From NCBI RefSeq assembly GCF_002848265.1, contig NZ_CP025422.1, positions 434,001 to 498,000 on the forward strand: a stretch of 64,000 bases of DNA, in the 5' to 3' direction. The stretch comes from Zhihengliuella sp. ISTPL4. Lineage in GTDB: Bacteria; Actinomycetota; Actinomycetes; Actinomycetales; Microbacteriaceae. Below the pieces are notes generated by a model. The model was not told where the DNA came from. It ran no database searches and worked only from the letters and a program-made list of their open reading frames with translations. Positions within the stretch are counted from its first letter, which is position 1. Every line of letters starts with the position of its first letter. Positions 49,264-64,000 of the stretch are shown here, piece after piece. The position numbers and the translations under genes are program-made.

Positions 49264-50307
49264 ATGACACCGCCGTCGTCCTCGTCCTCCCGTCCCCGTC
49301 TCGCCGACCTCGGCGTGCCGTCCGGAGCCTTCTCGCGCGGCGCGGAGAACGCGATCACCGACGTCCCCGGTGTGCGGGTGGGGCACGCCACGCTGCACGG
49401 CGACGGTCTGCACACGGGCGTGACGGCGATCGTCCCCGATGCCCTCACCGCAGAGCGCCGCAGCCTTCCCGCGAACCTCTCCGTGGGCAACGGCTTCGGC
49501 AAACTCGTCGGCGCCACACAGCTCCGGGAGCTCGGGGCGCTGGAGACGCCGATCCTGCTGACCTCGACGCTGTCCGTGTTCCGCGTCGCGGATGCGCTGC
49601 TCGGGCACCTGCTGGCGACGCCGGCGCACGCACGGACGACCACGTTGAACCCGGTGGTGGGCGAGACGAACGACGGATTCCTCTCCGACATCCGTCGCCG
49701 AGCCGTAGGAGAGGCGCAGGTGACGGAGGCACTGGCTGCGGCCGCTCCGGGTGCAGTTGCGGAGGGAGGCGTGGGCGCCGGAGCCGGGACCGTCGCCCTC
49801 GGGTACAAGGGCGGCATCGGCACGGCCTCGCGTCTGGTCGAGGTCGCGGGGAGTGCGTACACCGTCGGCGCTCTCGTGCAGACGAACTTCAGCGGCACCC
49901 TGCGGATCGCCGGGGTCCCGCTGCCCGCCGAGGAGCTGCTCGCCGAAGTTCCGGCACAACCCGTCGGTAACTCGTGCATGATCGTCGTCGCGACGGACGC
50001 CCCCGTCGACGGGCGGCAGCTCGGCCGCGTGGCCAACCGTGCCGTGTTCGCGATGCGCGGTGTCGGTGCGGACTATGCGCAGGGCAGTGGCGACTACGCC
50101 ATCGCCTTCTCGGTGCACGAGGAGCGCCGTCCGGTGGCGGATGACGACCTCTCGCCGCTCTTCGCCGCGACGATGGACGCGGTCGAGGAGGCGCTGATCA
50201 ACTCGGTGCTCGCCGCGGAGACCACGGCGGGCCCGGAGGGGCGGACGGCGCACGCGGTGCCGATCGATCGGGTGCACGAGCGTCTGGCTCGTGCCGGAGC
50301 CGTCTGA
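49264..50307 (+). CDS. P1 family peptidase, DmpA/L-aminopeptidase-D-esterase-like
   Basis: 347-aa self-processing N-terminal-nucleophile hydrolase of family S58. Predicted autocleavage is between N236 and S237 in QPVGNSCMIVVATDAP, freeing Ser237 as the nucleophile. NAITDVPGVRVGHATL and GAGAGTVALGYKGGIGTASR are family marks. DmpA of Ochrobactrum releases N-terminal L- and D-residues from peptides, and D-alanine peptides are among its substrates. No signal peptide is seen. ATG 49264 is preceded by GGATCGGAG. It lies next to the D-peptide cluster on the other strand. Confidence 0.88.
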   Translation: MTPPSSSSSRPRLADLGVPSGAFSRGAENAITDVPGVRVGHATLHGDGLHTGVTAIVPDALTAERRSLPANLSVGNGFGKLVGATQLRELGALETPILLTSTLSVFRVADALLGHLLATPAHARTTTLNPVVGETNDGFLSDIRRRAVGEAQVTEALAAAAPGAVAEGGVGAGAGTVALGYKGGIGTASRLVEVAGSAYTVGALVQTNFSGTLRIAGVPLPAEELLAEVPAQPVGNSCMIVVATDAPVDGRQLGRVANRAVFAMRGVGADYAQGSGDYAIAFSVHEERRPVADDDLSPLFAATMDAVEEALINSVLAAETTAGPEGRTAHAVPIDRVHERLARAGAV

Positions 50308-50312
50308 CCCGC

Positions 50313-50398
50313 GTTCACAACTCAGGAGAAGCCGGGCCGGTGGCGCCGCAGGCGCGGCGCGTCGCCCCGACCGCCATCGGGTGTCCTGAGTTGTGAAC
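50313..50398. repeat. 86-bp REP-like inverted-repeat element
   Basis: Perfect 15-bp terminal arms GTTCACAACTCAGGA and TCCTGAGTTGTGAAC. Between them are two smaller hairpins: GCGCCGC/GCGGCGC (50343-50349 with 50354-50360) and CCCGA/TCGGG (50366-50370 with 50377-50381). The whole can fold into a cloverleaf-like structure. It fills the 96-bp gap between two convergent genes almost exactly. Its AT-richer ends differ from its GC-rich centre. It may be a dispersed repeat or a bidirectional terminator. Confidence 0.7.
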
Positions 50399-50403
50399 CG
50401 TGG

Positions 50404-51216
50404 TCAGCCGGCGAGCGCGGCGTGGATACCCTCGCCGATGCGGCGCATGGCGGCCAGCACCGGTCCGCGTCCGTCGGCGCCCCGGTCCCAGTTCGCCAAG
50501 ACGGCGTAGGCGATCCGGCGGGTGGGGGACATGACGATTCCGGTGTCGGCCCGGACGCGGGAGATCGTGCCGGTCTTGTTCAGCAGCCAGATGCCGCGGT
50601 CGAAGCCCCAGTGCGCGAGCGGGTCGAGGTCGAAGGCCGAGGCGACCATGGACAGGTCCATGCCGGCGCCCAGCCAGCGGCGCAGCGTGTCGGCCGAGGC
50701 GGGGGAGAGGTCTGTCCCGTCGGCCAGTCGCGACATGAAGCGCACGAGCTCCGCAGCGTTCGCGTGCGACAGCGTCTTCGGGGCGCCGGGCGGGATCGGC
50801 CACCGCACGATGTCGTCGAGCGCCGAGGCGGTGTAGCCCAGGGCGCGGGTGTGCTCCTGCACGGTCGGGATGCCGATGACGCGGCCCAGCGTGTTGGTCG
50901 CGGCGTTGTCGCTCACCGCACCGATGAGCGCGGCCACGTCGTACAGCGACAGCTCGGACGCCTGCAGCAGGTACCAGAGCCCGGAGTCCTCGATGGCCTC
51001 GACCGGCCGTCGGGTCACGCGCTCGTCGAGAGTCCGCGTGCCGGCGTCCACCTCGGCGAGGAGGCGGTGCAGGAGGAAGATCTTGCCGACGCTCGCCGTG
51101 TCCTGCACCGCCTCCGGGTCATGACGCAGCAGCACCTCGCCGGAGTCGATGTCCTGGACGAGGATCGACCACACCGTGCCGTTCTCGTCGGGGAGGTCCA
51201 CGTCGATCGCGCTCAT
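50404..51216 (-). CDS. Serine hydrolase of the class A beta-lactamase/penicillin-recognising fold (copy 2)
   Basis: 270-aa protein with the three active-site motifs: S42-VGK (SxxK), S102-D-N and K214-T-G. The ExxLN motif that holds the deacylating glutamate of class A beta-lactamases is not found, and there is no signal peptide, so an antibiotic-resistance role is unlikely. A cytoplasmic D-specific peptidase or amidase fits better. Last gene of the operon, overlapping copy 1 by ATGA. It shares layout with copy 1 (EDSGLWYLL; VAALIGAVSDNAATN). Confidence 0.85.
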   Translation of the reverse strand: MSAIDVDLPDENGTVWSILVQDIDSGEVLLRHDPEAVQDTASVGKIFLLHRLLAEVDAGTRTLDERVTRRPVEAIEDSGLWYLLQASELSLYDVAALIGAVSDNAATNTLGRVIGIPTVQEHTRALGYTASALDDIVRWPIPPGAPKTLSHANAAELVRFMSRLADGTDLSPASADTLRRWLGAGMDLSMVASAFDLDPLAHWGFDRGIWLLNKTGTISRVRADTGIVMSPTRRIAYAVLANWDRGADGRGPVLAAMRRIGEGIHAALAG

Positions 51217-52046
51217 GCGTCCTCCTCGTCTCGTGCGCGTCCGGTGACGTGCGCGCGGATGAGCTCACCCACGGCGCGCATGCCGTCGAGCACGGGCGCG
51301 CGGAGATCGGCCGCAGAGTCCTTCCAGTTCGCCGCCACCGCATACGCGACGGCGGCCCTCGGGCCCCGCAGCAGCCCGACGTCGACGCGGGCGAAGCTCA
51401 CGCTGCCGGTCTTGTGGCGCAGCACCATGCCCTGATATTCGGTCTCGACGTGGGCGAGAGGATCGAGGAGGAAGGCGTCGGCGGTCATCGACGTGTCGGT
51501 GTCGGCGGCGAGCCAGTCCAGCACCCGTGCGCTCACCGCGGGGGAGAACGCCTCGCCGGCCCCGAGCCGGCGCATCACGTCGGACAGTTCGGCCGCGGTG
51601 CCGAACGACGGCGTCCATGGTAGGTCGGGTGTGCGCTCGTTGCGGATGTAGTCGTGCAGGGCGGTGTCGCGGTATCCGAGTTCCGGAGCGACGGCCCGCA
51701 CCTCCTCCAGACCACAGAGGTGGATCAGGGCGTTCGTGGCGAGGTTGTCACTCACCGCCCCGACGAGGAGCGCCGCATCGTGGACCGTGATGCGCTGGTC
51801 GTGCATGCGGTACAGGAGCCCGGAGTCCTCGACGCGGTGCTCGTCCGGGATCTCGATCCGGTCGTCCTCGGCGAGCGTGCCCGCCTCCAGCCGTCGAGCG
51901 ACCTCGAGGAGCAGGAAGATCTTGCCGATGCTCGCGGTCTCGCACTGCGTGTGCGGCTCCTGCTCGGCGAGGGTCTCCCCGGTGTCGGCGTCGACGAGCC
52001 GGATCGACCAGGTGACGCGGGGGGCGAGGGGCGGAAGAGCGATCAT
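51213..52046 (-). CDS. Serine hydrolase of the class A beta-lactamase/penicillin-recognising fold (copy 1)
   Basis: 277-aa paralogue of the next gene. Motifs S39-IGK, S99-D-N and K212-T-G are intact. Like copy 2 it lacks both a signal peptide and a clear ExxLN motif. Shared blocks include VEDSGLLYRMHD, ALLVGAVSDNLATNALIHL and AFLLDPLAHV. It overlaps the LD-carboxypeptidase stop by ATGA. Presumed to act on peptides brought in by the ABC transporter of the same operon (inference). Confidence 0.85.
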   Translation of the reverse strand: MIALPPLAPRVTWSIRLVDADTGETLAEQEPHTQCETASIGKIFLLLEVARRLEAGTLAEDDRIEIPDEHRVEDSGLLYRMHDQRITVHDAALLVGAVSDNLATNALIHLCGLEEVRAVAPELGYRDTALHDYIRNERTPDLPWTPSFGTAAELSDVMRRLGAGEAFSPAVSARVLDWLAADTDTSMTADAFLLDPLAHVETEYQGMVLRHKTGSVSFARVDVGLLRGPRAAVAYAVAANWKDSAADLRAPVLDGMRAVGELIRAHVTGRARDEEDA

Positions 52047-53005
52047 GGCCGTCCCACCGTGAGGCGGGGCTCGGCGCCGGTCGCGTCGAGCACCCCGTCG
52101 ACGCCCAGGGGGATGGTCAGGGCGTGCGGGTCGTGTCCGAAGCCCTGCTCCCACAGCACGGGGACGCCGGCATCCTGGAACTCGTCCCGCATGAGCGCGT
52201 GGACGAGGTCGAGGTCGCCGCACTCGTGCCAGGAGCCGAGCACGACACCCGTGGCCTGTGCGAGGCGGCCCGCCCGCCGCAGCTGGGTAACGAAGCTGTC
52301 CAGGCGGTACGGCTCCTCGGTGATGTCCTCCAGGAACAGGATGCCGGGGGAGGGGACGTCCGCCTCCGGGGCGCCGAGTCCAGCCGCCAGCAGGCTGAGG
52401 TTGCCGCCGGTGAAGCGCCCCTCGGCGCGGCCCGGCGTCATGATCTCCGTCTTCGGGCCGATGAGCTCCCGTCCGCGCCAGGGTTCGAAGAGCCAGCGCT
52501 GCACGTCGTCGCGCACCTGCTCCGAATCGCGGAAGACGTTGTTGCCCGCCATGGGGCAGAAGAGCGTCGCGACGTCGAGGTGCGCGCGCCACGTCTCGTG
52601 CAGCGCGGTCACGTCGGACGAGCCCGTGAGCAGCTTCGGTCGTCCGTCCTTGCGCAGCGCCCCGCGGCGCATGTCGGCCCAGTCGATGCGGTCGAGGAGG
52701 CGCAGGGCGCCGTAGCCGCCGCGTGCCGCGACGACGGCGTCCACGTCCGGATCGAGCCAGGCGTCGACGAGGTCGGCGCGGCGGAGGTCGTCCGGCCCCG
52801 CGAGGTACGACGCGCGCGGGTGCGGCGTGAGGACGTGCGCGCCCACGCGGACCTTCAGACCCCACGACTCGTAGTAGCCGACGGCGCGCTGGGTGTTCTC
52901 CTCGTTGCCGGGACCGGACGGCGAGACGATCGCCACCGTGTCGCCGGGTTGCAGGGGAGCCGTGTCGAGATACGGCGACACCGCCGCCTCCGTCAGGGCG
53001 CTCAT
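52043..53005 (-). CDS. LD-carboxypeptidase (S66 family, LdcA/MccF-like)
   Basis: 320-aa serine peptidase that cleaves an amide between an L- and a D-amino acid, such as the terminal D-Ala of murein tetrapeptides. Nucleophile S130 in LTGSSDVTALH; the catalytic Glu and His are expected in FLEDITEEPYRLD and LGSWHECGD. DTVAIVSPSGPG and AARGGYGALRLLDRIDW are family hallmarks. Cytoplasmic, as for LdcA in muropeptide recycling. The alternative MccF-like role (cleaving microcin C-type toxins) cannot be excluded. Overlaps the ATPase gene by ATGA. Confidence 0.9.
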   Translation of the reverse strand: MSALTEAAVSPYLDTAPLQPGDTVAIVSPSGPGNEENTQRAVGYYESWGLKVRVGAHVLTPHPRASYLAGPDDLRRADLVDAWLDPDVDAVVAARGGYGALRLLDRIDWADMRRGALRKDGRPKLLTGSSDVTALHETWRAHLDVATLFCPMAGNNVFRDSEQVRDDVQRWLFEPWRGRELIGPKTEIMTPGRAEGRFTGGNLSLLAAGLGAPEADVPSPGILFLEDITEEPYRLDSFVTQLRRAGRLAQATGVVLGSWHECGDLDLVHALMRDEFQDAGVPVLWEQGFGHDPHALTIPLGVDGVLDATGAEPRLTVGRP

Positions 53006-54651
53006 GCCGTCTTCTCCTCGATGCGCGGCGCCGCGGACAGCAGGTGCCGGGTGTACTCGTGCTGCGGGTTCAGCAGCACCTCTTCGGTGGGTCCGTGCTC
53101 GACGATCTGTCCGTGGTACATCACCGCGACCGTGTGGGCGATGTTCCAGGCCAGGCCGAGGTCGTGCGTGATCACGAGGGCGGAGAGCCCGAGGCGGCGA
53201 CGCAGCTCCAGCAGGAGTCCGAGGATCTCTCCGCGCACGGACGCGTCGAGCGAGGCGACGGGTTCGTCGGCGATGAGCATCTGCGGCTGCACGGCGAGCG
53301 CACCCGCGATGACGACACGCTGCCGCTGCCCGCCGCTGAGCTCCTGCGGGATCGCGCCGAAGTACCGCTCCGGCGGGGTGAGTTCCGCGTCCGCGAGGCT
53401 CTGCGCCACGCGTTCGCGCTCGTCGCCGGGGAAGCGCTGCACACGCAGCCCCTCGGCCACGGACTCGTACACGCTGTGCTTCGGGTTCAGCGCGGCCCAC
53501 GGGTCCTGCAGCACGAGCTGCACCTGCGAGCGGAACCGCGCGAGGTCGCGTCCTTTCGACGGGATCGGTGCGCCGTCGAAGAGGATCTGCGACCCTGAGT
53601 CGGCGGGCTGGAGTCCCATGAGCGCGCGGGCGAGGGTCGACTTGCCGGAGCCGGACTGGCCGACGAGAGCGACGATCTCGCCCTTGCGCACGGAGAGGTC
53701 GACGTCGCGGACCGCATGCACGGGGCGCCCGCCGGAGCGGTAGGTGACGTTGACGCCGCGGGCCTCCAGCAGCACCTCGTCGCCGTGGGTGATCTCCGGC
53801 ACGTCGTCCGCGCCACGGCCGTGCCGGGTCACCGGGGCCATCCGCGAGGCCGGGTCGCCGATCGTGGGGAAGGCGTCGGCGAGCTGACGCGTGTACGCCT
53901 CCTGCGGGGTGGTGCAGACCGCGTAGCTCTCGCCGACCTCGACGAGCTCCCCGTCGCGCATGATGGCGATCCGGTCGCACGCCGTGGCGAGCACCGACAG
54001 GTCGTGGCTGATCATGAGCATCGAGATGCCGCGCTCCGCCACCAGACGCGAGATCATGTCGAGGATCTGCTTCTGCACGATCACGTCGAGCGCGGTGGTC
54101 GGCTCGTCCGCGATGATGACCTCGGGATCGCAGGCGAGGGCCATCGCGATCATGACGCGCTGCTTCTGGCCGCCGGAGAGCTCGTGCGGGTACGACTCGC
54201 TCTTCTGCTGCGGCAGGTCGACGATGTCGAGCAGCTCCCGCACCCGCTCCTTGCGCGCCTTCTCGCCCTTCCATCGGTCGGAGGCGTGCAGCTCCAGCGC
54301 CTCCATGAGCTGCCACCCGACCGTGCGGACCGGGTTGAGCGAGTGCATCGCACCCTGGAACACGATGGACGTCTGCGCCCAGCGCACGGCGCGCAGCTGC
54401 CCGAAGGACAACGTGGCGACGTCCTGGTCGCCCAGCAGCACGCGGCCGCTGAGCCGGGCGTTGCGCGGCAGGAGCCGCAGGACGCTCATGGCGAGCGTGG
54501 ACTTCCCGGACCCGGACTCGCCGGCGATGCCGAGGGTCTGCCCCGCGGGGAGGGTGAGCGAGACGTGGCGCACGGCCGCCACCTCGTCTCGCCCGGACCG
54601 CCCGGAGGTGCGGTACCTGATGGAGACGTCGTCGAAGATCAGGTCGGGCAT
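53002..54651 (-). CDS. Peptide ABC transporter, fused double ATP-binding protein (DppD-DppF type)
   Basis: 549-aa protein with two complete ABC cassettes. First: Walker A GESGSGKST, signature ELSGGQKQR, Walker B VIIADEPTTALD. Second: GQSGSGKST, ELSGGQRQR, MLIADEPVASLD. C-terminal extensions of the oligopeptide type follow each (NPQHEYTRHLLSAAP). It energises uptake through the two permeases encoded upstream; one nucleotide separates it from the DppC-like gene. Confidence 0.94.
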   Translation of the reverse strand: MPDLIFDDVSIRYRTSGRSGRDEVAAVRHVSLTLPAGQTLGIAGESGSGKSTLAMSVLRLLPRNARLSGRVLLGDQDVATLSFGQLRAVRWAQTSIVFQGAMHSLNPVRTVGWQLMEALELHASDRWKGEKARKERVRELLDIVDLPQQKSESYPHELSGGQKQRVMIAMALACDPEVIIADEPTTALDVIVQKQILDMISRLVAERGISMLMISHDLSVLATACDRIAIMRDGELVEVGESYAVCTTPQEAYTRQLADAFPTIGDPASRMAPVTRHGRGADDVPEITHGDEVLLEARGVNVTYRSGGRPVHAVRDVDLSVRKGEIVALVGQSGSGKSTLARALMGLQPADSGSQILFDGAPIPSKGRDLARFRSQVQLVLQDPWAALNPKHSVYESVAEGLRVQRFPGDERERVAQSLADAELTPPERYFGAIPQELSGGQRQRVVIAGALAVQPQMLIADEPVASLDASVRGEILGLLLELRRRLGLSALVITHDLGLAWNIAHTVAVMYHGQIVEHGPTEEVLLNPQHEYTRHLLSAAPRIEEKTA

Positions 54652-54652
54652 C

Positions 54653-55567
54653 TCAGCGGCTCCTCAGCGTCGGGTTGGTGATGTTCTCGACGGCACGGCC
54701 CATCAGGGTGAACGACAGCACGACGAGAACGATGGCGATGCCGGGCACGAGCACGTACCACCAGTAGCCGCTGGTCGCCGCGGAGACGTCCATCGCGTTC
54801 TTCAGGATCGAGCCCCAGGACTGCAGGGTGGTGTCGCCGAGGCCGAGGAACGCCAGGGTGGACTCGGAGATGATCGCCGAGCCGACCGTGAGCGTCGTGT
54901 TGGCGAGCACGAGCGGGAGCACCCCGGGGAGGAGGTGCTTCATGATGATGTGCCAGTGCCCGGCGCCGAGAGCCCGAGAGCGCTCGATGTAGTCGCGCGA
55001 TTCGACGGACAGGGTCTGCGCGCGGACGACGCGGGCGGTACCGGCCCAGGAGGTCAGGCCGATCGCGATGATGATCGTCCAGACGCCGCGGCTCAGCACC
55101 GACGACAGCACGATCGCGAGGATCAGCGACGGCAGCACGAGGAAGAAGTCGATGATGCGCATCATCAGCCCGCCGAAGAAGCCGGTGAAGTGGCCCGCCG
55201 AGAGGCCGACGAGGGTGCCGATGATCATCGACATCGCCGTGGCGGCGAGGCCGACGAGCAGGGACACCCGGGCGCCCCACACCATGCGGACCCAGATCTC
55301 GCGACCCTGATGGTCGGTGCCGAGGGGATGCTCCCAGGACGGTGGGGCGAAGCGCTGCACGTCGACGAGCTTCGTGACGTCGAGCATGCTGGCGGGGGCG
55401 ATCACGGGGGCGAAGATCGCGATGAGCGCCACGATCACGAGGAAGACGAGACCCACCATGCCCGCCCGGTGTTGGGCGAACTGCCGGCAGAAGTCGACGA
55501 AGGCGGTGCCGCGGCGGTGCCACGCCAGGGCACGGGGCGAACGGATGGTCGGGGATGCCGTGGTCAT
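54653..55567 (-). CDS. Peptide ABC transporter permease (DppC-like)
   Basis: 304-aa inner-membrane permease. N-terminal helix GLVFLVIVALIAIFAPVIAP, the DppC-type HPLGTDHQGREIWVRMVWGARVSLLVG, and the EAA loop ERSRALGAGHWHIIMKHLLPGVLPLVLAN. About six transmembrane helices. ATG 55567 overlaps the DppB-like stop by ATGA. Confidence 0.93.
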   Translation of the reverse strand: MTTASPTIRSPRALAWHRRGTAFVDFCRQFAQHRAGMVGLVFLVIVALIAIFAPVIAPASMLDVTKLVDVQRFAPPSWEHPLGTDHQGREIWVRMVWGARVSLLVGLAATAMSMIIGTLVGLSAGHFTGFFGGLMMRIIDFFLVLPSLILAIVLSSVLSRGVWTIIIAIGLTSWAGTARVVRAQTLSVESRDYIERSRALGAGHWHIIMKHLLPGVLPLVLANTTLTVGSAIISESTLAFLGLGDTTLQSWGSILKNAMDVSAATSGYWWYVLVPGIAIVLVVLSFTLMGRAVENITNPTLRSR

Positions 55568-56607
55568 GCGCGCCTCACCCTCGGGTCGAGCTGCCGGTAG
55601 ATGAGGTCCGCGATGAGGTTCATCGCGATGATGATCGTGGAGAACACCACGAAGGTGCCCTGCAGGAGCGGGAGGTCGGGGCCGGAGATGGCCTCGAAGG
55701 TGAGCTTCCCGAGCCCGGGCCAGGAGAACACCGTCTCCACCGTGACGGCCCCGGCGATGAGACCGCCGATGTGCATGAAGACGAGGGTGACGGTGGGCAG
55801 GAGCGCGTTGGGGACGGCGTGCCGACGGCGGACGAGGTCTTCCCGGAGGCCCTTGGCCCGAGCAGTGGTGAGGTAGTCGGCGCCCATCTCCTCGAGGAGT
55901 GAGCTGCGCATCACCATGAGGTACTGCGCGTACACGACCGCGACCATCGTGATCACCGGGAGCACCATGTGCGAGATCACGTCCAGGACCGCGCCGACCG
56001 GATCGGTGGGCGGGTTGGGGGAGACCATGCCTCCCGTCGGGAACCAGTGCAGCGTGCCGCCGAAGATCATCAGGAGCAGCAGGGCCAGCCAGAAGGTCGG
56101 CACCGACCAGAACACGAGCGATGTGCCGGAGACGATGCGGTCGAAGGTGGAGCCGTGCTTCCAGGCCGCCTTCTGTCCGAGCCAGAGGCCGAGGGCGATC
56201 GCGATGATCGCCGCCGTGCCGGTGAGGAGGATCGTGTTCCAGAAGTACTGGCCGATGAGCTCGGACACCGACGTGCGGTAGACGTAGCTCGTGCCGAAGT
56301 TCAGCGTGAAGACGTTGCCGAGGTAGTCGACGAACTGCTGCCACAGGGGCTTGTTCAGACCGAGCTGCTCGCGCAGCTGGTCGGCCTGCTCGGCGCTCAT
56401 CCCGCGCTCCCGGGCGATCGAGGCGACCGGATCGCCCGGCAGGATCTTGAAGGCGAAGAATCCGAGGAGGATCACCATCGCCAGGCTGATGGCCGCGCCG
56501 CCGAGCTTGACCAGGAAGTAGCGGAGGGCGCCGACGCCCTTCGGCTGCTCCTCGGCCGCGGCGCTCGTCGCGATGGCGGAGGTGGACGGGGGAACCGCGT
56601 TGGACAT
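55564..56607 (-). CDS. Peptide ABC transporter permease (DppB-like)
   Basis: 347-aa permease. An N-terminal extension of about 28 residues precedes the first helix (ISLAMVILLGFFAFKILPGDPVASI). GLNKPLWQQFVDYLGNVFTLNFGTSY and the EAA loop DYLTTARAKGLREDLVRRRHAVPNALLPTVT are typical of DppB. It starts 72 nt after the binding-protein stop, a gap that could host a processing hairpin. Confidence 0.93.
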   Translation of the reverse strand: MSNAVPPSTSAIATSAAAEEQPKGVGALRYFLVKLGGAAISLAMVILLGFFAFKILPGDPVASIARERGMSAEQADQLREQLGLNKPLWQQFVDYLGNVFTLNFGTSYVYRTSVSELIGQYFWNTILLTGTAAIIAIALGLWLGQKAAWKHGSTFDRIVSGTSLVFWSVPTFWLALLLLMIFGGTLHWFPTGGMVSPNPPTDPVGAVLDVISHMVLPVITMVAVVYAQYLMVMRSSLLEEMGADYLTTARAKGLREDLVRRRHAVPNALLPTVTLVFMHIGGLIAGAVTVETVFSWPGLGKLTFEAISGPDLPLLQGTFVVFSTIIIAMNLIADLIYRQLDPRVRRA

Positions 56608-56679
56608 GGGGGTCTCCTTACAGCGGACCGGGAGACGCCGCGGGGGCGGAAGCCCGCCACCCGCGGCGTCTCGCCGGAC

Positions 56680-58512
56680 TCATTCGACGTCGGCGATGTT
56701 GCGGCGACGGATCAGGAAGAAGATGAGCCCTCCGATGAGGACCACCCCCACCACGACGCCTCCGATGAGGAGTCCGGTGTTCGTGCCGGTGCCGCCGGCG
56801 GTCGCCCCCTCGACGGGCTCGACGGTCAGGTAGCCCCAGTAGCCGGCCTGGTTGGCGATGATGCCGCCGTCCTTCGGCTGCAGCGTGAAGCCCGTGAAGC
56901 GGTCCGAGCGGTAGGCCTCCAGCGAGTTGGCGTACCAGGTGGCGACCTGGGCGGTGTCGGTGTAGTTCAGCGCGAGCATGTCGTGCACGATCTCCTGGCG
57001 CTTCTCCGCGTCGATCTCGGAGCGCTGCGCGGCGTACATCTCGTCGAACTCCGGGTTGCAGTACCCGTCCTGCGTGGTGCCGCCGGTGCCGTCGGTCGCG
57101 GTCGGCAGGTTCATGCAGGTGTTGATGCCCAGCTGGTAGTCGGGGTCGGGGTTGACCGACCAGCCGCTGAAGTACAGGTCGTAGTCGCCGGAGGTGGCCT
57201 TCGCGCTGATCGTGTCGGAGTCGGTGGACTCGACCGTGATCTCGATGCCGATGTCCTTCATCCACGGGACGAAGAAGTCGGAGATGGACTGCTCGTTCGC
57301 GTCGTCCGCGTCCGTCAGCAGGCGCAGGCTCAGGCGCTGGCCGTCCTTCTCGCGGATGCCGTCCGCGCCGGGGACCCAGCCCGCCTCGTCGAGCTTCGCC
57401 TGCGCGGCCTCGGGGTCGAAGCCCACGATCACGTCGTCGTCGTCCGACAGGTGCCACTTCGGGAAGGACGCCGGGATGAAGCTCGTCGCGAGCGTGCCCT
57501 CGCCGTCCAGGACCTTGTCGAGGAGGGTGGCCGTGTCGGTGCCGAGACGGATGGCCTGGCGCACCTCGAGCTCCTTCAGCGCGGCGTTGCCGGTGCCGTA
57601 GGGCACATTGTCGCGGGTCTGCTGACCGACGTTGATGCTGATCGAGTGGTAGCGGCGGCCCTCACCGGAGTGCGTGGTGATGCCGTCGACGCCCTCGAGT
57701 GCCGAGAACTGGGTGGGGGTGAGGCCCGTGACGAGGTCGACGTCGCCCGCCTTGAGCGCCTGCACCTGGGCGTCCGAGTTCGTGTAGTACACGTACTGGA
57801 TCGCGTCGATCTTGGGGGCGCCCCGCCAGAAGTTCTCGTTCGCCTTCAGCACGATGGACTGGTTGGCCGAGTAGCTGTCGAGGACGAACGGGCCGGAGCC
57901 GACCACGTCGGCGTCGTTGGTGAAGGTCGTCGGGTCGTCGACCTCCTCCCAGATGTGCTTCGGGACGATCGGGATCTCCGAGCCGGGGTTCGGGGCCTGC
58001 GGGGTCTTCAGGGTGATCACGACGGTCTTGTCGTCCGGGGTCTCGACGCTGTCGAAGTTGGAGACGAGGTTGCCGTTGGCGGTGCCGAGCGCGGGCACCG
58101 TCATCATCTGGTCGTACGTGTACTTCACATCGGCCGAGGTGATCGGCTCACCGTCCGACCAGACGAGGTCGTCCTGGAGGGTGAAGGTCCACGTCTGACC
58201 ACCGTCGGTCGCCTCCCAGCTGTCGGCGAGGCCCTTCGTGGGCGAGCCGTCCTCGGCGTCGTTCTGCACGAGCGACTCGTAGACGTACCGGATGATGTTC
58301 GTCGGCGTCAGGTAGATCGAGATGAACGGGTTGAACGTGTCCACGAACCCGGAGGTGGCGATCCGGAGCGTCGTGTCGGAGGCCGGGGATTCGGTGGCGG
58401 CGCTGACGGACTGCGCCTGAGCGGCACCGACCGGAGCGGCGAGGAGGAGCGCGGAGGCGATCGCGGCGGCGGTCAGACTTCGCACGGTTCTGGAGCGGGG
58501 GGCAAGACGCAT
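56680..58512 (-). CDS. Peptide-binding protein with C-terminal membrane anchor (SBP family 5)
   Basis: 610-aa extracytoplasmic solute-binding protein of the DppA/OppA family. A Sec signal peptide (residues 1-34, ending GAAQAQ) lacks a lipobox cysteine. SBP_bac_5 features include DSWEATDGGQTWTFTLQDDLVWSDGEPITSADVKYTYD. Unlike most Gram-positive binding proteins it is held by a C-terminal transmembrane helix (GLLIGGVVVGVVLIGGLIFFLIRRR, about residues 578-603). First gene of the seven-gene operon; a -35/-10 pair lies upstream. Confidence 0.92.
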   Translation of the reverse strand: MRLAPRSRTVRSLTAAAIASALLLAAPVGAAQAQSVSAATESPASDTTLRIATSGFVDTFNPFISIYLTPTNIIRYVYESLVQNDAEDGSPTKGLADSWEATDGGQTWTFTLQDDLVWSDGEPITSADVKYTYDQMMTVPALGTANGNLVSNFDSVETPDDKTVVITLKTPQAPNPGSEIPIVPKHIWEEVDDPTTFTNDADVVGSGPFVLDSYSANQSIVLKANENFWRGAPKIDAIQYVYYTNSDAQVQALKAGDVDLVTGLTPTQFSALEGVDGITTHSGEGRRYHSISINVGQQTRDNVPYGTGNAALKELEVRQAIRLGTDTATLLDKVLDGEGTLATSFIPASFPKWHLSDDDDVIVGFDPEAAQAKLDEAGWVPGADGIREKDGQRLSLRLLTDADDANEQSISDFFVPWMKDIGIEITVESTDSDTISAKATSGDYDLYFSGWSVNPDPDYQLGINTCMNLPTATDGTGGTTQDGYCNPEFDEMYAAQRSEIDAEKRQEIVHDMLALNYTDTAQVATWYANSLEAYRSDRFTGFTLQPKDGGIIANQAGYWGYLTVEPVEGATAGGTGTNTGLLIGGVVVGVVLIGGLIFFLIRRRNIADVE

Positions 58513-58568
58513 GGAAGGTCCCTTCGGGCGCCGCCCGGATCCACAGTGAAGCCGGGTCGGTGCTGACC

Positions 58569-58597
58569 ATGCAAGCGGAAGACGGCCCTGTGGTCAA
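58569..58597 (-). promoter_or_regulatory. Candidate promoter of the peptide-uptake operon
   Basis: On the minus strand, TTGACC (58597-58592), a 17-bp spacer and TTGCAT (58574-58569). The -35 is good and the -10 weak. The 287-nt region 58513-58799 holds no other supported gene. Confidence 0.4.
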
Positions 58598-58799
58598 GAC
58601 ATTCGATGCGTATCGCGGAAGAAAAATCGCGCGGATCAGAAAGATCACCGGCCGTCGAGCGGCTGTAACACGGCGGAAATACGCGGATGCCAGGATGCGC
58701 GCATCGGAATGACGGGAGCGAAGGATGACTACTCGACGCGGACATCCGGAACGTATCTCGGGTCGGTTCGGGTCGGGCACGCGAACCGGAATCGTATCG

Positions 58800-59948
58800 T
58801 CACTCCGCCGGGACGGTGAGCACGGCACGCAGGAGCGCGATGCGTTCGTGCAGGGAGGAGCGCAGGAAGTGCTCGTCCAGCGCATGCGCACCGCCGCCCC
58901 GGGGGCCGAAGCCGTCGACGGTCGGCAGACCCTTTCCGCCGAGGAGGTTCGTGTCGCCCGCGCCGGCCGCGGGGCGGCCGTCGACGTGCTGGCCGAGTGC
59001 GGCGCCGGCCGCGGCGATCCGGGCGAGGAGGTCGGTGTCCTCCGCCGAGGCCTGCCAGGCGGGCCGGGCGCTCAGCACGGCGACCTCGAGGCGGGCGCCG
59101 GGGCGCACCGGCGCCAGTTCCTGGAGGGCGGTGAGGACGCGCTGCTCGCTGTCCGGGTCTCGGAAGCGGAGGCCGATCTCGGCCGCCGCGTGCGCCGGCA
59201 CCACGTTGGTCCTCGCGCCGCCGTCGATGACGCCGACGTTGCACAGCACCGGACTCGGAAGCTCCGGGTCGGCCACGATCGCTCGGGCCAGGAGGAGCTG
59301 GTCCACGAGCTCGTCGATCGCCGAGACGCCGTGCTCGGGATCGAGTGCGGCGTGGGCCGCGCGGCCGGTGACGGCGATGCGCACCCGGGCACTGCCGCGG
59401 CGGCCGACCTTGAGGGCGCCGTCGGGATGCGGGGACTCGAATCCGATGGCGCAGGACGCGCCCCTGGCCCGTTCCGCGAGCAGGGGGCCCGAGACGGGGG
59501 AGCCGATCTCCTCGTCCGCGACGAGCACGATCCGCACGGCGCGCCGCTGTTCGAGCGGCACGGACTGCAGGTGCCGCAGGGCCTCGAGCATCACCACGAT
59601 GCCGGCCTTCATGTCGTAGGCACCGGGGCCGCGCACGACATCCCCGTCCTCGGTCCACGGCAGGTCGTCCGCCAGGGTGCCGACCGGCCAGACGGTATCG
59701 GTGTGGCCGATGAGGAGAACCGGGTCTCCGGTACCGGGGACGTCGATGACGAGATCGGTCCCGAGCTCGTGCGGGATCCGCTGGACGCTGCCGCCGACGC
59801 CGGCGAACCAGGCGGACAGCAGGTCGGCGATGCGGGCGCTCGCCTCCGTGTCGCGGCTCGGCGTCTCGATCAGCACGAGTTCGCGCACGAGTGCGATGAT
59901 GTCGTCGGAAGGATGGTCCCCGTCGCGCACTGCCGAGAGAGTCGTCAC
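58800..59948 (-). CDS. M20 family metallopeptidase/deacylase
   Basis: 382-aa two-zinc hydrolase of the ArgE/DapE/CPG2 family. Metal-binding motifs: GHTDTVW, AYDMKAG, the catalytic pair in VADEEIGSP and FGPRGGGAHALDE. The dimerisation domain is complete (KVGRRGSARVRIAVTGRAAHAA). GTG 59948 gives a compact N-terminus; no signal peptide. It is divergent from the GNAT-racemase operon across 93 nt. In the known D-to-L amino-acid pathway an M20 enzyme removes the N-acyl group from the L-product, and it may do so here; a dipeptidase is the alternative. Confidence 0.85.
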   Translation of the reverse strand: MTTLSAVRDGDHPSDDIIALVRELVLIETPSRDTEASARIADLLSAWFAGVGGSVQRIPHELGTDLVIDVPGTGDPVLLIGHTDTVWPVGTLADDLPWTEDGDVVRGPGAYDMKAGIVVMLEALRHLQSVPLEQRRAVRIVLVADEEIGSPVSGPLLAERARGASCAIGFESPHPDGALKVGRRGSARVRIAVTGRAAHAALDPEHGVSAIDELVDQLLLARAIVADPELPSPVLCNVGVIDGGARTNVVPAHAAAEIGLRFRDPDSEQRVLTALQELAPVRPGARLEVAVLSARPAWQASAEDTDLLARIAAAGAALGQHVDGRPAAGAGDTNLLGGKGLPTVDGFGPRGGGAHALDEHFLRSSLHERIALLRAVLTVPAE

Positions 59949-60041
59949 GGTTACGAACCGTATCTTGCCCCTTGATCGCCCCGCAACCCGCCGATAGCAT
60001 CGCTCAAAGCAGCAGGACTCCTCAATCTTAGGAAACGTATC

Positions 60042-60818
60042 GTGCCTCATTCTTCGGTGGCCGCCGGTGTTGCCCACGGCTGCCGCGAACTCACCCGGTA
60101 CACCGAGTTCCGTGAGGCCGCCGCGCTGTACGCCCGCGTCTTCGCATACACGGAGAACGAGTACGCCCTCAACGCCAACCTGCTCACCGCCCTCGCCCGC
60201 AACGGCGGTTCCGCGGTCGGCGCCTTCGCCGACGACGGAGAGCTGATCGGGTTCGCGTACGGGTTCGCCGGCTGTGACACCACCGGCGCGTCCTTCCACT
60301 ACTCGCAGGCGGCCGCCGTCGATGCCGCGCACCAGGGACGCGGCGTCGGCCAGGCGCTCAAGCTCGCGCAGCGTGCCGTGGCCCTGCGCTGGGGGCAGCG
60401 GACGATGCGGTGGACGTTCGATCCGCTGCTGTCACGCAACGCGCACTTCAACCTGAGCTCTCTCGGGGCCGTCGGCATCGCCTACGAGCGCGACTACTAC
60501 GCCCGTCCCGATACCGACCGTCTGGTGGTCTCCTGGGACCTGGACGTCGCCGATCGCCCGGCCCGTCGGTCGCTTCCCGTCCCGCCCGTGCTCGGGCCGG
60601 ACGACTGGGGGCGAGCCGTGGCGGCGGACGGCGGCACCTGGATCGCGATCCCGACGCGACCCGGCGCCCTCGACGCCGAGGAGCGCGCGGTGCTGCGGCG
60701 GGATCTGGAGCGGACGATGACCGCGGCATTCCGCCGCGGGGACCTCCTCGTAGGGGCCGCGCGCCTCGACGACGACACGGCGGTCTACCGCGCGACACCT
60801 CGGGAGGGCACGGCATGA
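60042..60818 (+). CDS. GNAT N-acyltransferase, COG3375-like (candidate D-amino-acid N-acyltransferase)
   Basis: 258-aa acyltransferase. Acyl-CoA loop AAVDAAHQGRGVGQALKLAQR; the distinctive WTFDPLLSRNAHFNLSSLGAVGIAYERDYY and PTDRLVVSWDLD-like end (DTDRLVVSWDLD) match a GNAT subfamily that accompanies N-acylamino-acid racemases. GTG start at 60042. In Geobacillus a GNAT of this context was assigned as succinyl-CoA:D-amino-acid N-succinyltransferase (recalled from the literature). First gene of the plus-strand operon. Confidence 0.82.
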   Translation: MPHSSVAAGVAHGCRELTRYTEFREAAALYARVFAYTENEYALNANLLTALARNGGSAVGAFADDGELIGFAYGFAGCDTTGASFHYSQAAAVDAAHQGRGVGQALKLAQRAVALRWGQRTMRWTFDPLLSRNAHFNLSSLGAVGIAYERDYYARPDTDRLVVSWDLDVADRPARRSLPVPPVLGPDDWGRAVAADGGTWIAIPTRPGALDAEERAVLRRDLERTMTAAFRRGDLLVGAARLDDDTAVYRATPREGTA

Positions 60819-61504
60819 ACGACCACGACCACGACCAGGAGGATCGCGACCTCGTCTCTCCGCGAGACCGCTACGGCGAGCGCATCCGCACCAACCTCTC
60901 CGCCGAGAGCATTCAGGCGCGGATCATCGAGACCGAGCAGCGCACCCTCGCCCAGACCTTCGAGGAGCTCAGCCGCTCGGCCCAGGTGCCGCAGGCCGCC
61001 GCGCTGCTGCTCGGCGCCCGACGACGGTACGTGGCCGGCGAGGGCAAGGCGGCGGCGTACGCGCAGCTCCTCAACGCGGATCTCTCGGCGACGCTGTCGA
61101 ACGTCTTCCTCGTCGACGGGCACGCGCTGCAGCCGCTCACCGTGCTCACCGACGTCCGGGCCAGCGACGTCCTCATCGCGTTCTCCCTGCGGCGCTACCG
61201 GGAGGAGACCGTGCGGCTCGGGCGGCTCTTCCACGAGGCGGGCGGTCAGCTCGTCGTCATCACCGACAGCGAGGATGCCCCGCTCGCATCCATCGCGACC
61301 TCGCTCATCCGGGTGCGCACGGGATCGGCGTCGTACGCCGACTCGCCGACCCCGGTCGCGGCGGTGTGCCACCTGCTGAGCGCGCTCACCACGGCGAGCG
61401 CGAAGGGAGCGCGACGGCGGCTCGCCGAACGCGACCGGCTGGTGGCGCGCCTGGGTCTCTACGGCCCCGAGACCGCGCGGGCCCGCCCGGAGGAGGACGC
61501 GTGA
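60815..61504 (+). CDS. SIS-domain protein lacking the RpiR/MurR helix-turn-helix
   Basis: 229-aa protein related to the C-terminal half of MurR/RpiR regulators. After a polar leader (residues 1-40) a SIS sugar-isomerase fold runs from LLLGARRRYVAGEGKAAAYAQLLNADLS through VRASDVLIAFSLRRYREETVRLGRLFHEAGGQLVVITDS. The 75-80-residue HTH domain is absent, so direct DNA binding is unlikely. It may be a phosphosugar-binding or isomerase-like protein, perhaps for a MurNAc derivative. ATGA/GTGA overlaps on both sides show tight coupling. Confidence 0.8.
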   Translation: MNDHDHDQEDRDLVSPRDRYGERIRTNLSAESIQARIIETEQRTLAQTFEELSRSAQVPQAAALLLGARRRYVAGEGKAAAYAQLLNADLSATLSNVFLVDGHALQPLTVLTDVRASDVLIAFSLRRYREETVRLGRLFHEAGGQLVVITDSEDAPLASIATSLIRVRTGSASYADSPTPVAAVCHLLSALTTASAKGARRRLAERDRLVARLGLYGPETARARPEEDA

Positions 61505-62649
61505 GGGTCGTCCGCGTCCGGCTGTTCGCCCTGCGCCAGCCGCTGCGTCACAGCTTCGAGACGAGCTCGCACCGCAAGTCCGGCATCGAGCATGTGCTCG
61601 TCGAGGTCACCGATGCCGACGGCCAGACGGGGTGGGGGGAGATCGCGTCGCCGTCCGATCCGTTCTACGGAGCGGAGACCACGGTCACCGCGTGGGAGAT
61701 CGTGACCCGCTACCTGGTGCCCGCGCTGCTCCGCGCCGAGGGGGAGGAGCCGGCGGAGCTGGAGGCGTCGTGGGCGCGGGTCCGCGGGCACGAGTTCGCG
61801 AAGGCCGGGTTCTCCGGCGCGGTGTGGGACCTGGCCTCCCGGCGGCGGGGGATCGCGCTCGCCGCGGCCCTCGGCGGGACGCGCGACGAGGTCGTCGCGG
61901 GGGTGTCGTTGGGCATCGAGCCGTCGATCGACGAGCTGCTGGCCCAGGTGGAGCTGCAGCGCGCCGCCGGCTACCCCCGCGTCAAGCTCAAGATCGCTCC
62001 GGGCTGGGATGTGGAGCCGGTGCGTGCGGTGCGCGGCGCCTACCCCGACCTCGACCTTCACGTGGACGCGAACGGCGCGTATGCCGACGACGAGCGGGCG
62101 GCCGCGGTGTTCGCACGCCTGGATCGCGAGGCGCTCACCATGATCGAGCAGCCCTTCGCGCCGCGGGATCTCGTGGCCCACGCTGATCTGCAGGCGCGGC
62201 TCGACACGGACGTGTGCCTGGACGAGTCGGTCGTCGACCTCGGCGACCTGCGGACCATGATCCGGCTGGGGGCGGGGCGGGTCCTCAACATCAAGGTGTC
62301 GCGGATGGGCGGGCTCACCGTCGCCCGCGCGGCGCACGACGTGGCGCGGGACGCGGGCATCCCCGTGTGGTGCGGCGGGATGCACGAGTTCGGCGTCGGG
62401 CGGGCTGCGAACGTCGCGCTGTCCTCGCTCCCCGGTTTCCTGCTGCCGTCGGATGTGTCGGGATCGGACAAGTACTACGAGTCGGACATCATCGCGCCTC
62501 CGGTGACCGCCGTCGCCGGTCGCGTCACGGTCCCCACCGGACCGGGGATCGGACACGAGGTGCTCGCCGAGCGCATCGCCCGTGACGCGTCCCGCGTCTT
62601 CGACTCCTCCGCGGCCGAGGCCCCTGAGGCCGTCCTGACCGCGGGCTGA
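61501..62649 (+). CDS. N-acylamino-acid racemase/o-succinylbenzoate synthase-type enolase
   Basis: 382-aa enolase-superfamily enzyme of the NSAR/OSBS subgroup. Catalytic residues: K162/K164 (VKLKI), D189 (DANGAY), E216 (IEQP), D241 (LDES) and K265 (NIKVSRMGG). GIPVWCGGMHEFGVGRAANVALSSLPGF is closely similar to the Amycolatopsis racemase. GTG 61501 overlaps the SIS stop. OSBS activity (menaquinone synthesis) is possible, but the absence of men genes and the neighbouring GNAT and M20 genes favour racemisation of N-acylated amino acids. Confidence 0.88.
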   Translation: MRVVRVRLFALRQPLRHSFETSSHRKSGIEHVLVEVTDADGQTGWGEIASPSDPFYGAETTVTAWEIVTRYLVPALLRAEGEEPAELEASWARVRGHEFAKAGFSGAVWDLASRRRGIALAAALGGTRDEVVAGVSLGIEPSIDELLAQVELQRAAGYPRVKLKIAPGWDVEPVRAVRGAYPDLDLHVDANGAYADDERAAAVFARLDREALTMIEQPFAPRDLVAHADLQARLDTDVCLDESVVDLGDLRTMIRLGAGRVLNIKVSRMGGLTVARAAHDVARDAGIPVWCGGMHEFGVGRAANVALSSLPGFLLPSDVSGSDKYYESDIIAPPVTAVAGRVTVPTGPGIGHEVLAERIARDASRVFDSSAAEAPEAVLTAG

Positions 62650-62681
62650 CCGGCCCCCGAACCCTGCGAGAGCGGAATCCC

Positions 62682-63569
62682 ATGCGCGCACTGCTGCTGT
62701 ACCGGCTCGATCTCGCCGCCGAGGCGGCGGAGGACGGGATCCATGCCGTCGATCCGCGGGAGCCGATCATCCGGGCGACCGACCTCGGCGTCGCCCGCGG
62801 CGACGGCGTGTTCGAGACCGCCGTGGTGCGCGGAGGAAGGCCGCAGGCCCTGGAGGCGCATCTCGTGCGGCTGGAGCGGTCCGCGCAGCTCCTGGGGCTG
62901 CCCGCGCCGGGCCGCGAGCGGTGGGCACGGGCGGTGCTCCGCGCGGCCGCCGAGGTCTCCCGCCCCGGAGTGCTGCGGGACGGGGAGATCGCCTCGATCA
63001 AGTTCGCGATGACCCGCGGAGACGAGATCGACCCGGCCGGGCCGACGGGGTGGGTGCTCGGCTTCGCGGGCGAGGACCCGGAGGTCGTCCGCGCGCGCGG
63101 CGTCTCGGCGGTGGTCCTCGACCGCGGGTACCGGCACGACGTCATGGAGACGGCGCCCTGGCTGCTGCAGGGAGCGAAGTCCCTCGCCTACGCCGTGAAC
63201 CAGGCGGCCCTGCGGGAGGCGCGGAGCAGGGGCGCGGACGACGTCCTCTTCGTCAGCGCCGACGGGTTCGTCCTCGAAGGGCCGCGGTCGACGCTGATCG
63301 CGCGGCTCGACGGCGCGCTGGTCACGCCACCGCCCGAGTACGGGGTGCTCCCCGGGACGACCCAGGCCGACGTCTTCGCGGGACTCGCCGAGGTGCCCTC
63401 CCGCGTCGGTCCGATGGTGCGGGACGATCTGGAGCGGGCGGACGCCCTCTGGCTCTGCTCCAGCACCCGCGGTGCGGTGCCCGTGCGGGAGCTGGACGGC
63501 GTCGCGCGCGCCGTGGACTCGGCGCTCACCGCGCGGATGAACGCGGTGCTGGATGGACGAGAGGACTGA
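62682..63569 (+). CDS. Class IV aminotransferase (4-amino-4-deoxychorismate lyase/D-amino-acid aminotransferase type)
   Basis: 295-aa PLP enzyme of fold type IV. The PLP lysine is K166 in LQGAKSLAYAVNQAAL. GVARGDGVFETAVVRGGRPQALEAHLVRLERSA, ADDVLFVSADGFVLEGPRSTLIA and YGVLPGTTQADVF match the PabC/DAAT branch. Actinobacterial members are usually named ADC lyase, but the surrounding D-amino-acid genes make a D-amino-acid transaminase a real alternative. It starts 32 nt after the racemase. Confidence 0.85.
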   Translation: MRALLLYRLDLAAEAAEDGIHAVDPREPIIRATDLGVARGDGVFETAVVRGGRPQALEAHLVRLERSAQLLGLPAPGRERWARAVLRAAAEVSRPGVLRDGEIASIKFAMTRGDEIDPAGPTGWVLGFAGEDPEVVRARGVSAVVLDRGYRHDVMETAPWLLQGAKSLAYAVNQAALREARSRGADDVLFVSADGFVLEGPRSTLIARLDGALVTPPPEYGVLPGTTQADVFAGLAEVPSRVGPMVRDDLERADALWLCSSTRGAVPVRELDGVARAVDSALTARMNAVLDGRED

Positions 63570-63570
63570 G

Positions 63571-64000
63571 ATGGTCGACGCGGACCTGCCGATCGATCGG
63601 GTGATCGACGGCCACAACGACCTCGCCTGGGCGAGTAGGACGCTGCTCGGCTACCGGGTCGCGGAGCTCTCCGGCCGGGTGACGGCCACGCAGACCGATC
63701 TGCCGCGACTGACCGCGGGCGGGGTCGCCGGCCAGTTCTGGTCGGTCTGGGTCGATCCCGTGCTGGAGGGGGCGGAGCAGGTCGTGGCCACGCTCGAGCA
63801 GATCGACTTCGTGCACCGCCTCGTCGACGCCCACCCGCAGCGCTTCGCGATCGCTCGGACGGCGGCCGACGTGCGTGCGGCGATGGCGGAGGGGCGGATC
63901 GCCTCGCTCATCGGCATCGAGGGCGGCGACCAGCTCGGCGGATCGCTGGCCGTGCTGCGGCAGTTCGCGCGGCTCGGCGCGAGGTATCTGACGCTCACCT
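63571..64000 (+). CDS. Membrane dipeptidase family (M19) protein, 3'-truncated by window edge
   Basis: 143 residues of an amidohydrolase-fold dipeptidase. Zinc-binding HxD is in VIDGHNDLAW; the bridging glutamate is in IGIEGGDQLGGSLAVLRQF. VTATQTDLPRLTAGGVAGQFWSVWV is typical of M19. Many M19 enzymes cleave L-D dipeptides, which fits the cluster. ATG 63571 has GAGAGG upstream; ATG 63553 in the same frame is an alternative. It follows the aminotransferase stop by one base. The zinc ligands beyond residue 143 cannot be checked. Confidence 0.88.
   Translation, partial: MVDADLPIDRVIDGHNDLAWASRTLLGYRVAELSGRVTATQTDLPRLTAGGVAGQFWSVWVDPVLEGAEQVVATLEQIDFVHRLVDAHPQRFAIARTAADVRAAMAEGRIASLIGIEGGDQLGGSLAVLRQFARLGARYLTLT

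Follow-up and report, generated by a model that had tools for sequence, protein, structure and literature searches.

A putative island for the catabolism of D-amino-acid peptides in Zhihengliuella sp. ISTPL4 and related actinobacteria

A GNAT N-acyltransferase working with an NSAR-type racemase has been described as an irreversible route from D- to L-amino acids (Sakai et al. 2006, as reported in PMC8762209). In Bacillus subtilis, ykfA-D adjoin dppB-E and are associated with the metabolism of murein peptides (PMC2954226), and the DgcN-DgcA system converts D-Glu into L-Glu, in this direction only (PMC10845958, PMC12363236). Here we consider a locus in which enzymes of related families are encoded next to a peptide importer: two opposed operons found in positions 49,264 to 64,000 of a 64,000-nucleotide stretch of the genome of Zhihengliuella sp. 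ISTPL4 (contig NZ_CP025422.1, positions 434,001 to 498,000), which is referred to as the window. The third enzyme of the GNAT-NSAR route is reportedly an M20 protein, and in the DgcN-DgcA system the enolase-superfamily racemase acts after N-acylation.

We propose, as a fairly probable assignment, that the genes form an island for the breakdown of D-amino-acid-containing peptides, those of murein being the most plausible. The proposal is based on the co-occurrence and the fixed layout of the two operons, on a cis-element present in both intergenic gaps in the window and in nine close relatives, on the activity of relatives of most of the enzymes towards D- or L,D-substrates, on the similar gene company found in Deinococcus, Arthrobacter, Lysinibacillus and Sulfitobacter, on the distribution of a deacylase homologue among related loci, on the existence of a separate MenC in the genome, and on the lack of strong hydrophobic stretches in the enzymes, as expected for the cytosol (simple hydropathy scan). 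Gene content, conserved catalytic residues, linkage and the conserved element are observed.

According to our proposal, the Opp-type importer would take up short peptides, LdcA would remove their terminal D-Ala in the cytosol, the M19 protein would split L-D dipeptides (for example L-Ala-D-Glu), and the remaining bonds would be left to the serine hydrolases and a GATase-fold protein. The GNAT would then attach an N-acyl group to the freed D-amino acid, the NSAR-type racemase would invert it, and the M20 protein would release the L-form, the whole being one-way. The class IV transaminase would transfer the nitrogen of D-Ala to D-Glu, or work alongside this core. All these reactions and substrates, and the co-regulation discussed below, are predicted from the protein families.

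Linkage of the two operons and their common cis-element

The minus-strand operon encodes a family 5 peptide-type binding protein (56680..58512; SBP_bac_5), importer permeases of the OppB type (55564..56607; BPD_transp_1) and of the OppC type (54653..55567; BPD_transp_1, OppC_N), a fused two-domain ABC ATPase (53002..54651; two ABC_tran stretches, oligo_HPY), an LdcA-type L,D-carboxypeptidase of family S66 (52043..53005; PF02016 and PF17676) and two serine hydrolases of the PF13354 family, SH2 (51213..52046) and SH1 (50404..51216), the latter with a class A beta-lactamase fold and predicted to be cytosolic. The gene of the M20 deacylase/peptidase (58800..59948, minus strand; PF01546, PF07687) is divergent from the plus-strand operon, which encodes the GNAT, a putative D-amino acid N-acyltransferase (60042..60818), a SIS-domain protein resembling RpiR without its DNA-binding part (60815..61504; PF01380; 3sho, E 1.4e-8), the NSAR-type racemase of the enolase superfamily (61501..62649; 1sja, E 7.8e-83), a class IV aminotransferase that is likely a D-amino acid transaminase (62682..63569; PF01063), and an M19 dipeptidase (63553..64000 in the window, true end at 64683; PF01244). 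Families were assigned with Pfam, with some extra scoring by NCBIfam models; the GNAT matches are weak, one GNAT model being above the Pfam cut-off and one below. The coordinates give 4-bp overlaps along the SH1-SH2-LdcA-ABC chain, in the permease pair and along the GNAT-SIS-NSAR chain, 1 bp between the ABC ATPase and OppC-type permease genes, and a 17-bp overlap between the aminotransferase and M19 genes; a distance of 72 bp sets the binding-protein gene apart. All the families named in the first-pass annotation are present where it placed them (Pfam). The operons are opposed, as it said; the M20 gene across which they were said to face each other belongs to the minus strand too and diverges from that of the GNAT.

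Among 198 Microbacterium genomes (thresholds of E <= 1e-100 for NSAR and 1e-60 for LdcA), NSAR is found in 25 and LdcA in 27. LdcA accompanies NSAR in each of the 25, and the two LdcA matches in genomes devoid of NSAR are 43% identical. The two genes are on the same contig, on opposite strands and 8480-10104 bp apart in 24 of the 25 genomes, the single exception being an assembly of about 540 contigs (Fisher p 1e-29 for the co-occurrence, kinship ignored). The first-pass annotation had looked to the co-occurrence of importer, LdcA and NSAR for support; this co-occurrence is observed, and rejection of its reading on the ground of rare co-occurrence fails. The adjacency exceeds what chance would give, and the two operons are one linked unit, which is probably co-regulated.

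A set of 150 Microbacteriaceae genomes, including that of ISTPL4, was searched with thresholds of 1e-30 (NSAR), 1e-40 (LdcA), 1e-20 (SIS), 1e-80 (binding protein) and 1e-40 (SH2). NSAR matches are present in 42 genomes, 11 of which form the orthologue group (at least 57% identity). LdcA is found in seven genomes, in six of them less than 15 kb from the NSAR orthologue; the SIS protein in 12, adjoining NSAR in 10; the binding protein in 10, near the NSAR orthologue in seven. M19 matches of at least 68% occur in six genomes and adjoin NSAR in all six, which 19 other matches (46-58%) do not, and GNAT, NSAR and M20 are adjacent in 10 of 10 orthologue loci of this sample. SH2-like proteins (about 38-44%) are present in 97 of the 150 genomes and are therefore too frequent for the PF13354 family as such to be diagnostic. 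In one genome of the set (G028; L124 1054-18640), an NSAR of 46-47% is clustered with a GNAT, an importer of the same kind, an S12 protein and a D-aminoacylase homologue, which is possibly a second version of the island. SIS homologues of the cluster type that are not accompanied by NSAR (G050 and G120; L122 and L123) have as neighbours an S12 protein and, by eye, an MFS transporter.

The hexanucleotide CGTATC is unremarkable in the window as a whole (21 copies for 17.5 expected), 5 of the 21 copies being in the gap upstream of the importer operon and in that between the M20 and GNAT genes. The aligned copies give the consensus ATA(C/G)G-N3-CGTATC, which is found at 58601..58614 and 58744..58757 upstream of the importer operon, at 59951..59964 in the M20-GNAT gap, and at 60028..60041, immediately 5' of the GNAT start codon; a third CGTATC of the importer gap (58793..58798) does not match this longer pattern. 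Nine close relatives retain CGTATC copies of both gaps, with 28 copies for 1.1 expected in their importer gaps. The M20-GNAT gap of 56 other loci contains 68 copies for 2.9 expected, with at least one copy in 44 of them, and the element is present in this gap in 53 of 65 actinobacterial loci, the nine close ones included. Ten sites in the 3.53-Mb genome match the pattern WTNSGNNNCGTATC, four of them at the locus, and no site matches its reversed control; the pattern was derived from these very sites. One of the six remaining matches (L134) is intragenic, with an ArsR-like gene (by eye) roughly 0.6 kb away; no regulator gene was recognised beside the other five.

A TANNNT stretch that resembles a -10 box, directly 5' of the start codon, is overlapped by some of the copies, and the element may be an operator placed over a leaderless promoter, or a part of the promoter. 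From this common cis-element we predict that both operons are probably under joint control in the close relatives. A scan of 50200-60200 detected no promoter, and one terminator-like site for 1.4 expected. Control by GlnR was considered and set aside, since the window shows no enrichment of GTNAC-N6-GNAAC with one mismatch allowed (18 sites for 28.9 expected); GlnR-like sites at 58665, inside the importer gap, and at 59944, overlapping the start of the M20 gene, are a lead.

The racemase core and its partners in other loci

A scan with the NSAR alignment found 250 relatives, of which the best 80 were analysed. All locus counts given from here on refer to these 80 actinobacterial loci, those with short flanks being omitted from each denominator; 68 loci have at least 9 kb upstream. 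The GNAT gene is upstream in 78/79, that of the SIS protein in 67/80 and a divergent M20 gene in 62/76, and the full core, M20 divergent from GNAT-SIS-NSAR, is present in 57/76. Among the 68 long-flank loci, at least three importer genes are found in 29, LdcA or a serine hydrolase in 26, and both in 25. M19 is encoded in all 29 importer loci against 1 of the 39 others, and the class IV aminotransferase in 21/29 against 7/39. When all 80 loci are counted, the GATase-fold protein is present in 29/29 importer loci and four others and an S12 protein in 27/29 and four others, while a homologue of N-acyl-D-amino-acid deacylase (1m7j, E 3.4e-94) is found in 12 of 51 importer-less loci, some of them with short flanks in these three counts, and in 1 of 29 importer loci. 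Proteins resembling D-amino-acid dehydrogenase are encoded in five of the 80 loci, and a C39-like protein in 13. These distributions suggest that exchangeable front ends, a peptide importer or an N-acyl-D-amino-acid deacylase, feed a general D-to-L core. The D-residue theme put forward in the first-pass annotation is extended by the deacylase homologues (13/80 in total), the dehydrogenase-like proteins and the D-selective relatives of the transaminase.

The gene order is retained while the flanking genes vary, and the importer-type loci are found mostly in Microbacteriaceae. In Leucobacter sp. cx-328 (L070 12230-14413) a single open frame comprises the GATase-fold and S12 hydrolase domains, and a gene of equal length occupies a similar place in L072. 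An apparent SIS-NSAR fusion in L077 was rejected as wrong-frame read-through.

The catalytic residues of the racemase, K162, K164, D189, E216, D241 and K265 (the KxK motif, three metal ligands and the second catalytic lysine), are present in 75/75 aligned sequences, five of the 80 loci being omitted because their frame is unreadable. The loop that shapes specificity in this family reads TSSHxK, together with HEF, in the clade of the cluster, as opposed to TSFG and I/L-ET in the Amycolatopsis NSAR and in five Microbacteriaceae paralogues of 43-47%; of five loci with NSARs of 43-47%, four have a GNAT match nearby. S23, H24 and K26 are invariant in the 75 sequences. H295 belongs to the scan pattern VWCGGMH, so that its constancy is partly selected; it is also found in the ten A1 sequences collected without this pattern. 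Judged by its sequence, the racemase of the cluster is a new and distinct subfamily, and its extra basic loop residues would fit an acidic substrate. Microbacterium sp. LCT-H2, the closest relative that bears a name, has an NSAR that is 97-98% identical.

The acyl-CoA loop residues of the GNAT, Q98, G101 and G103, are conserved in 78/78 sequences, and the motif residues of the M20, LdcA, M19, aminotransferase and GNAT proteins, which we take to be catalytic, are retained in nearly all compared relatives. The N-terminal helix-turn-helix of RpiR/MurR was not found in the SIS protein, whose sole Pfam match is the SIS domain, and 23 aligned relatives are of similar length. These relatives have an invariant K197-G198 and an R201-R202-R206 patch close to the C-terminus, which are absent from the RpiR match 3sho in the alignment.

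A GNAT homologue is also present in 28 plasmid records. Four of them, from four phyla, were examined, and in all four the GNAT gene adjoins an NSAR-type gene labelled menC, which suggests that annotation may conceal routes of this kind. The Lysinibacillus plasmid has M20-GNAT-menC next to a peptide transporter, and that of Arthrobacter M20, an S12 serine hydrolase, M19 (by tblastn only), GNAT and menC. The order is menC, GNAT, permeases, binding protein and serine hydrolase in Deinococcus, and MurR/RpiR, amino acid importer, menC and GNAT on a conjugative plasmid of Sulfitobacter, no M20 being seen in either of these two stretches. The RpiR regulator of Sulfitobacter is complete; its counterpart in the actinobacterial cluster is a SIS protein that lacks the DNA-binding part.

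A candidate route from murein peptides to L-glutamate

Hydropathy places a hydrophobic stretch at both the N-terminal and the C-terminal ends of the binding protein; the C-terminal one is followed by RRR, as if the protein were anchored, and no lipobox is seen by eye. The LdcA protein of the cluster matches LdcA 5z01 (E 1.5e-26) better than MccF (5.7e-16), and a role as an MccF immunity protein was rejected on account of this weaker match; the Ser-Glu-His triad, presumably made of the residues that we selected, is retained in the 17-18 relatives compared. SH1 keeps its SxxK, SDN and KTG motifs in the four relatives compared, and the KTG of SH2, whose best solved match is 4ewf (E 4e-15), was compared in three. 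These two proteins are not considered as beta-lactamases: SH2 scores 47.4 bits with NF033103 (cut-off 200) and SH1 has no match at 1e-10.

Contrary to the first-pass annotation, the block continues past 64000: M19 is followed in this genome (L005 1680-8920, about 64680-71920 when counted as in the window) by genes for a GATase-fold protein of class I, for an S12 serine hydrolase and for a second importer of the Opp type. The binding protein of this second importer, which may cross-match that of the first, does not enter the locus counts. The solved matches of the S12 protein include alkaline D-peptidase, D-amino acid amidase and DD-carboxypeptidases, none of them close. On the other side, the S58/DmpA-type aminopeptidase (49264..50307, plus strand; PF03576), which had been counted as a member, is a loose associate: of 8 Microbacterium genomes checked, 3 have it next to the block, and elsewhere it lies upstream in L018 and downstream in 5 of the 80 loci. 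Two genes for class I aminoacyl-tRNA synthetases, taken by eye for valS and ileS, border the region.

A gamma-glutamyl peptidase activity is suggested for the GATase-fold protein on the sole basis of its likeness to plant GGP1, which is such a peptidase. GGP1 is described as a class-I GATase-like protein (PMC5442658). The aminotransferase of the cluster is 51% identical to CpuTA1 (E 2.7e-70), and R39, P201 and R263 are found in 30/30 relatives and K107 in 29/30, the motifs reported for non-canonical D-amino acid transaminases being R...F, K/R, GPxS and S-x-x-R (PMC10671532). CpuTA1 uses D-Ala and alpha-ketoglutarate and not L-Ala (PMC5131300), BlasaTA has its top kcat/Km for D-Glu and alpha-ketoglutarate (PMC10671532), and Rv0812, besides its activity on D-Ala and D-Glu, is an aminodeoxychorismate lyase (PMC8105722).

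The solved relatives of the aminotransferase are D-selective and the nearest solved relative of the M20 protein is carboxypeptidase G2 (1cg2, E 4.7e-32), which makes D-glutamate a candidate. We tentatively consider a more specific scheme, a complete murein-peptide route that would dispense with an AEE-type epimerase (L-Ala-D/L-Glu epimerase). LdcA would trim D-Ala, the GATase-fold protein would act as a gamma-D-glutamyl peptidase, M19 would split L-Ala-D-Glu, and the transaminase would pass the nitrogen of D-Ala to alpha-ketoglutarate as D-Glu; D-Glu would then collect all D-nitrogen and be turned, in one direction, into L-Glu by the GNAT, the basic-loop NSAR subfamily and the carboxypeptidase-G2-like M20, under one operator common to both operons. 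The AEE models fail on the NSAR of the cluster (61.9 bits for a cut-off of 343, and 57.5 for 500). This scheme is possible, albeit doubtful. Several points weigh against D-glutamate: the other class IV paralogue of the genome is equally near CpuTA1 (52% vs 51%), the nearest NCBIfam models of the aminotransferase are aminodeoxychorismate lyases (under cut-off), the GNAT described in the literature N-acylated aromatic D-amino acids (PMC8762209), and NSAR kinetics are tabulated for N-succinyl-phenylglycine and N-succinyl-phenylalanine (PMC8142540).

Other readings and comparison with known systems

Several observations weigh against the proposal of a D-peptide island. The importer part and the core are on separate contigs in one genome of the family set (G062), and the importer part is present in another, 83% complete, that has no NSAR match (G065). 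In the importer gap of eight loci beyond the close relatives, there are 6 copies of CGTATC for 1.2 expected and the element is found in three; it is missing from the other five, so that its sharing by both operons holds for close relatives only. In 39 of the 68 long-flank loci the core has no peptide module with it, a frequency which indicates that it is not tied to murein. All importer loci fall within one 40-row clade of the NSAR tree (100/99), which also holds importer-less loci; the locus counts are therefore not independent trials, and reflect a single assembly event followed by losses and transfers. With NCBIfam, the binding protein best matches binders of nickel, oligopeptides and opines, each at a score far under cut-off, and no NlpC/P60 endopeptidase was found with Pfam among the scanned proteins of the window and of L005. 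The M20 protein of the window does not match that of Lysinibacillus at the threshold used, so that the deacylases may not be one subfamily. Last, the NSAR passes the MenC equivalog TIGR01928 (288.6 bits, cut-off 200.65). It is nevertheless unlikely that its main role is to be the MenC of this genome, since it scores 52 bits with the actinobacterial MenC model NF002782, which another locus, the separate MenC, passes with 468 (cut-off 288). Of the single scavenging pathway proposed in the first-pass annotation, the linkage and the D-residue partners stand; the core also exists without any peptide module, and DmpA is not a stable member.

It may be that the core is a converter of hydrophobic or aromatic D-amino acids of many sources, and that the importer and the hydrolases serve mixed peptides or D-peptide antibiotics, not murein. 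The published GNAT and NSAR substrates (PMC8762209, PMC8142540) would agree with this, as would the many cores that lack the peptide module. We find it rather unlikely, given that LdcA and M19 accompany the importer and that the NSAR specificity loop is unlike the known type.

The island could also regain D-diamino acids and D-Glu from the turnover of the cell's own wall, the peptidoglycan of Microbacteriaceae being rich in D-diamino acids and D-Glu bridges and the importer-type loci being mostly from this family. Such recycling is improbable here, considering the patchy distribution (25 of 198 Microbacterium genomes), unlike that of a housekeeping route, and Gordonia amarae, which carries the whole module inside the same NSAR clade with a wall type that differs from that of Microbacteriaceae. 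Together with this patchiness, the position of Gordonia amarae and the scattering of Microbacterium in the NSAR tree, where it is not one group, suggest transfer between genera. That the locus should consist of ordinary parts, a peptide importer and general peptidases kept next to an OSBS-like gene by transfer history with no joint pathway, would account for the single clade, the scattered Microbacterium and the TIGR01928 match, but it is very improbable in view of the order retained despite changing flanks, the separate MenC, the element in both gaps of close relatives and the same gene company in other phyla.

Considered as a D-peptide island, the locus joins two partly known pathways into one candidate nitrogen-salvage route. 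The recovery of nitrogen from murein D-Glu and D-Ala is little described in the accessible literature beyond E. coli and Bacillus, and the locus is a compact candidate for the salvage of murein D-amino acids in Actinomycetota. The first-pass annotation had not recognised the combination as a described system; we found no description of it in the open literature searched, which omits most subscription papers. GNAT-NSAR-M20 is known, however, and import with LdcA and an epimerase has its Bacillus counterpart, which makes the locus less new than was held. What is new is the gene combination, the distinct NSAR subfamily, the exchangeable front ends and the common element.

Like the B. subtilis dpp-ykf region, the locus gathers a peptide ABC importer, an LdcA-type carboxypeptidase and a stereo-inverting enzyme of the enolase superfamily. 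Unlike it, the cluster has, among the proteins scanned, no dipeptide epimerase and no NlpC/P60 endopeptidase, and M19 would cleave first, the D-residue being inverted only then, in the form of an N-acyl monomer. M19 itself resembles Sco3058, a bacterial homologue of renal dipeptidase that uses L-D dipeptides (3id7, E 1.1e-105 for the whole protein), and retains the metal ligands. Similarly, the aminotransferase retains the motif residues of CpuTA1, BlasaTA and Rv0812, which use D-Ala and alpha-ketoglutarate or D-Glu. The DgcN-DgcA system differs in the family of its acyltransferase, which is not that of the GNAT, and the NSAR of the cluster scores 94.8 bits with the DgcA model, whose cut-off is 400. 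The GNAT-NSAR-M20 pathway is matched by the same three enzyme families, adjacent here and with the NSAR catalytic residues retained; the present core departs from it by its TSSHxK and HEF loop, by an M20 of the carboxypeptidase-G2 kind, and by its association with an importer, LdcA, serine hydrolases, M19, a GATase-fold protein, a SIS protein and a transaminase.

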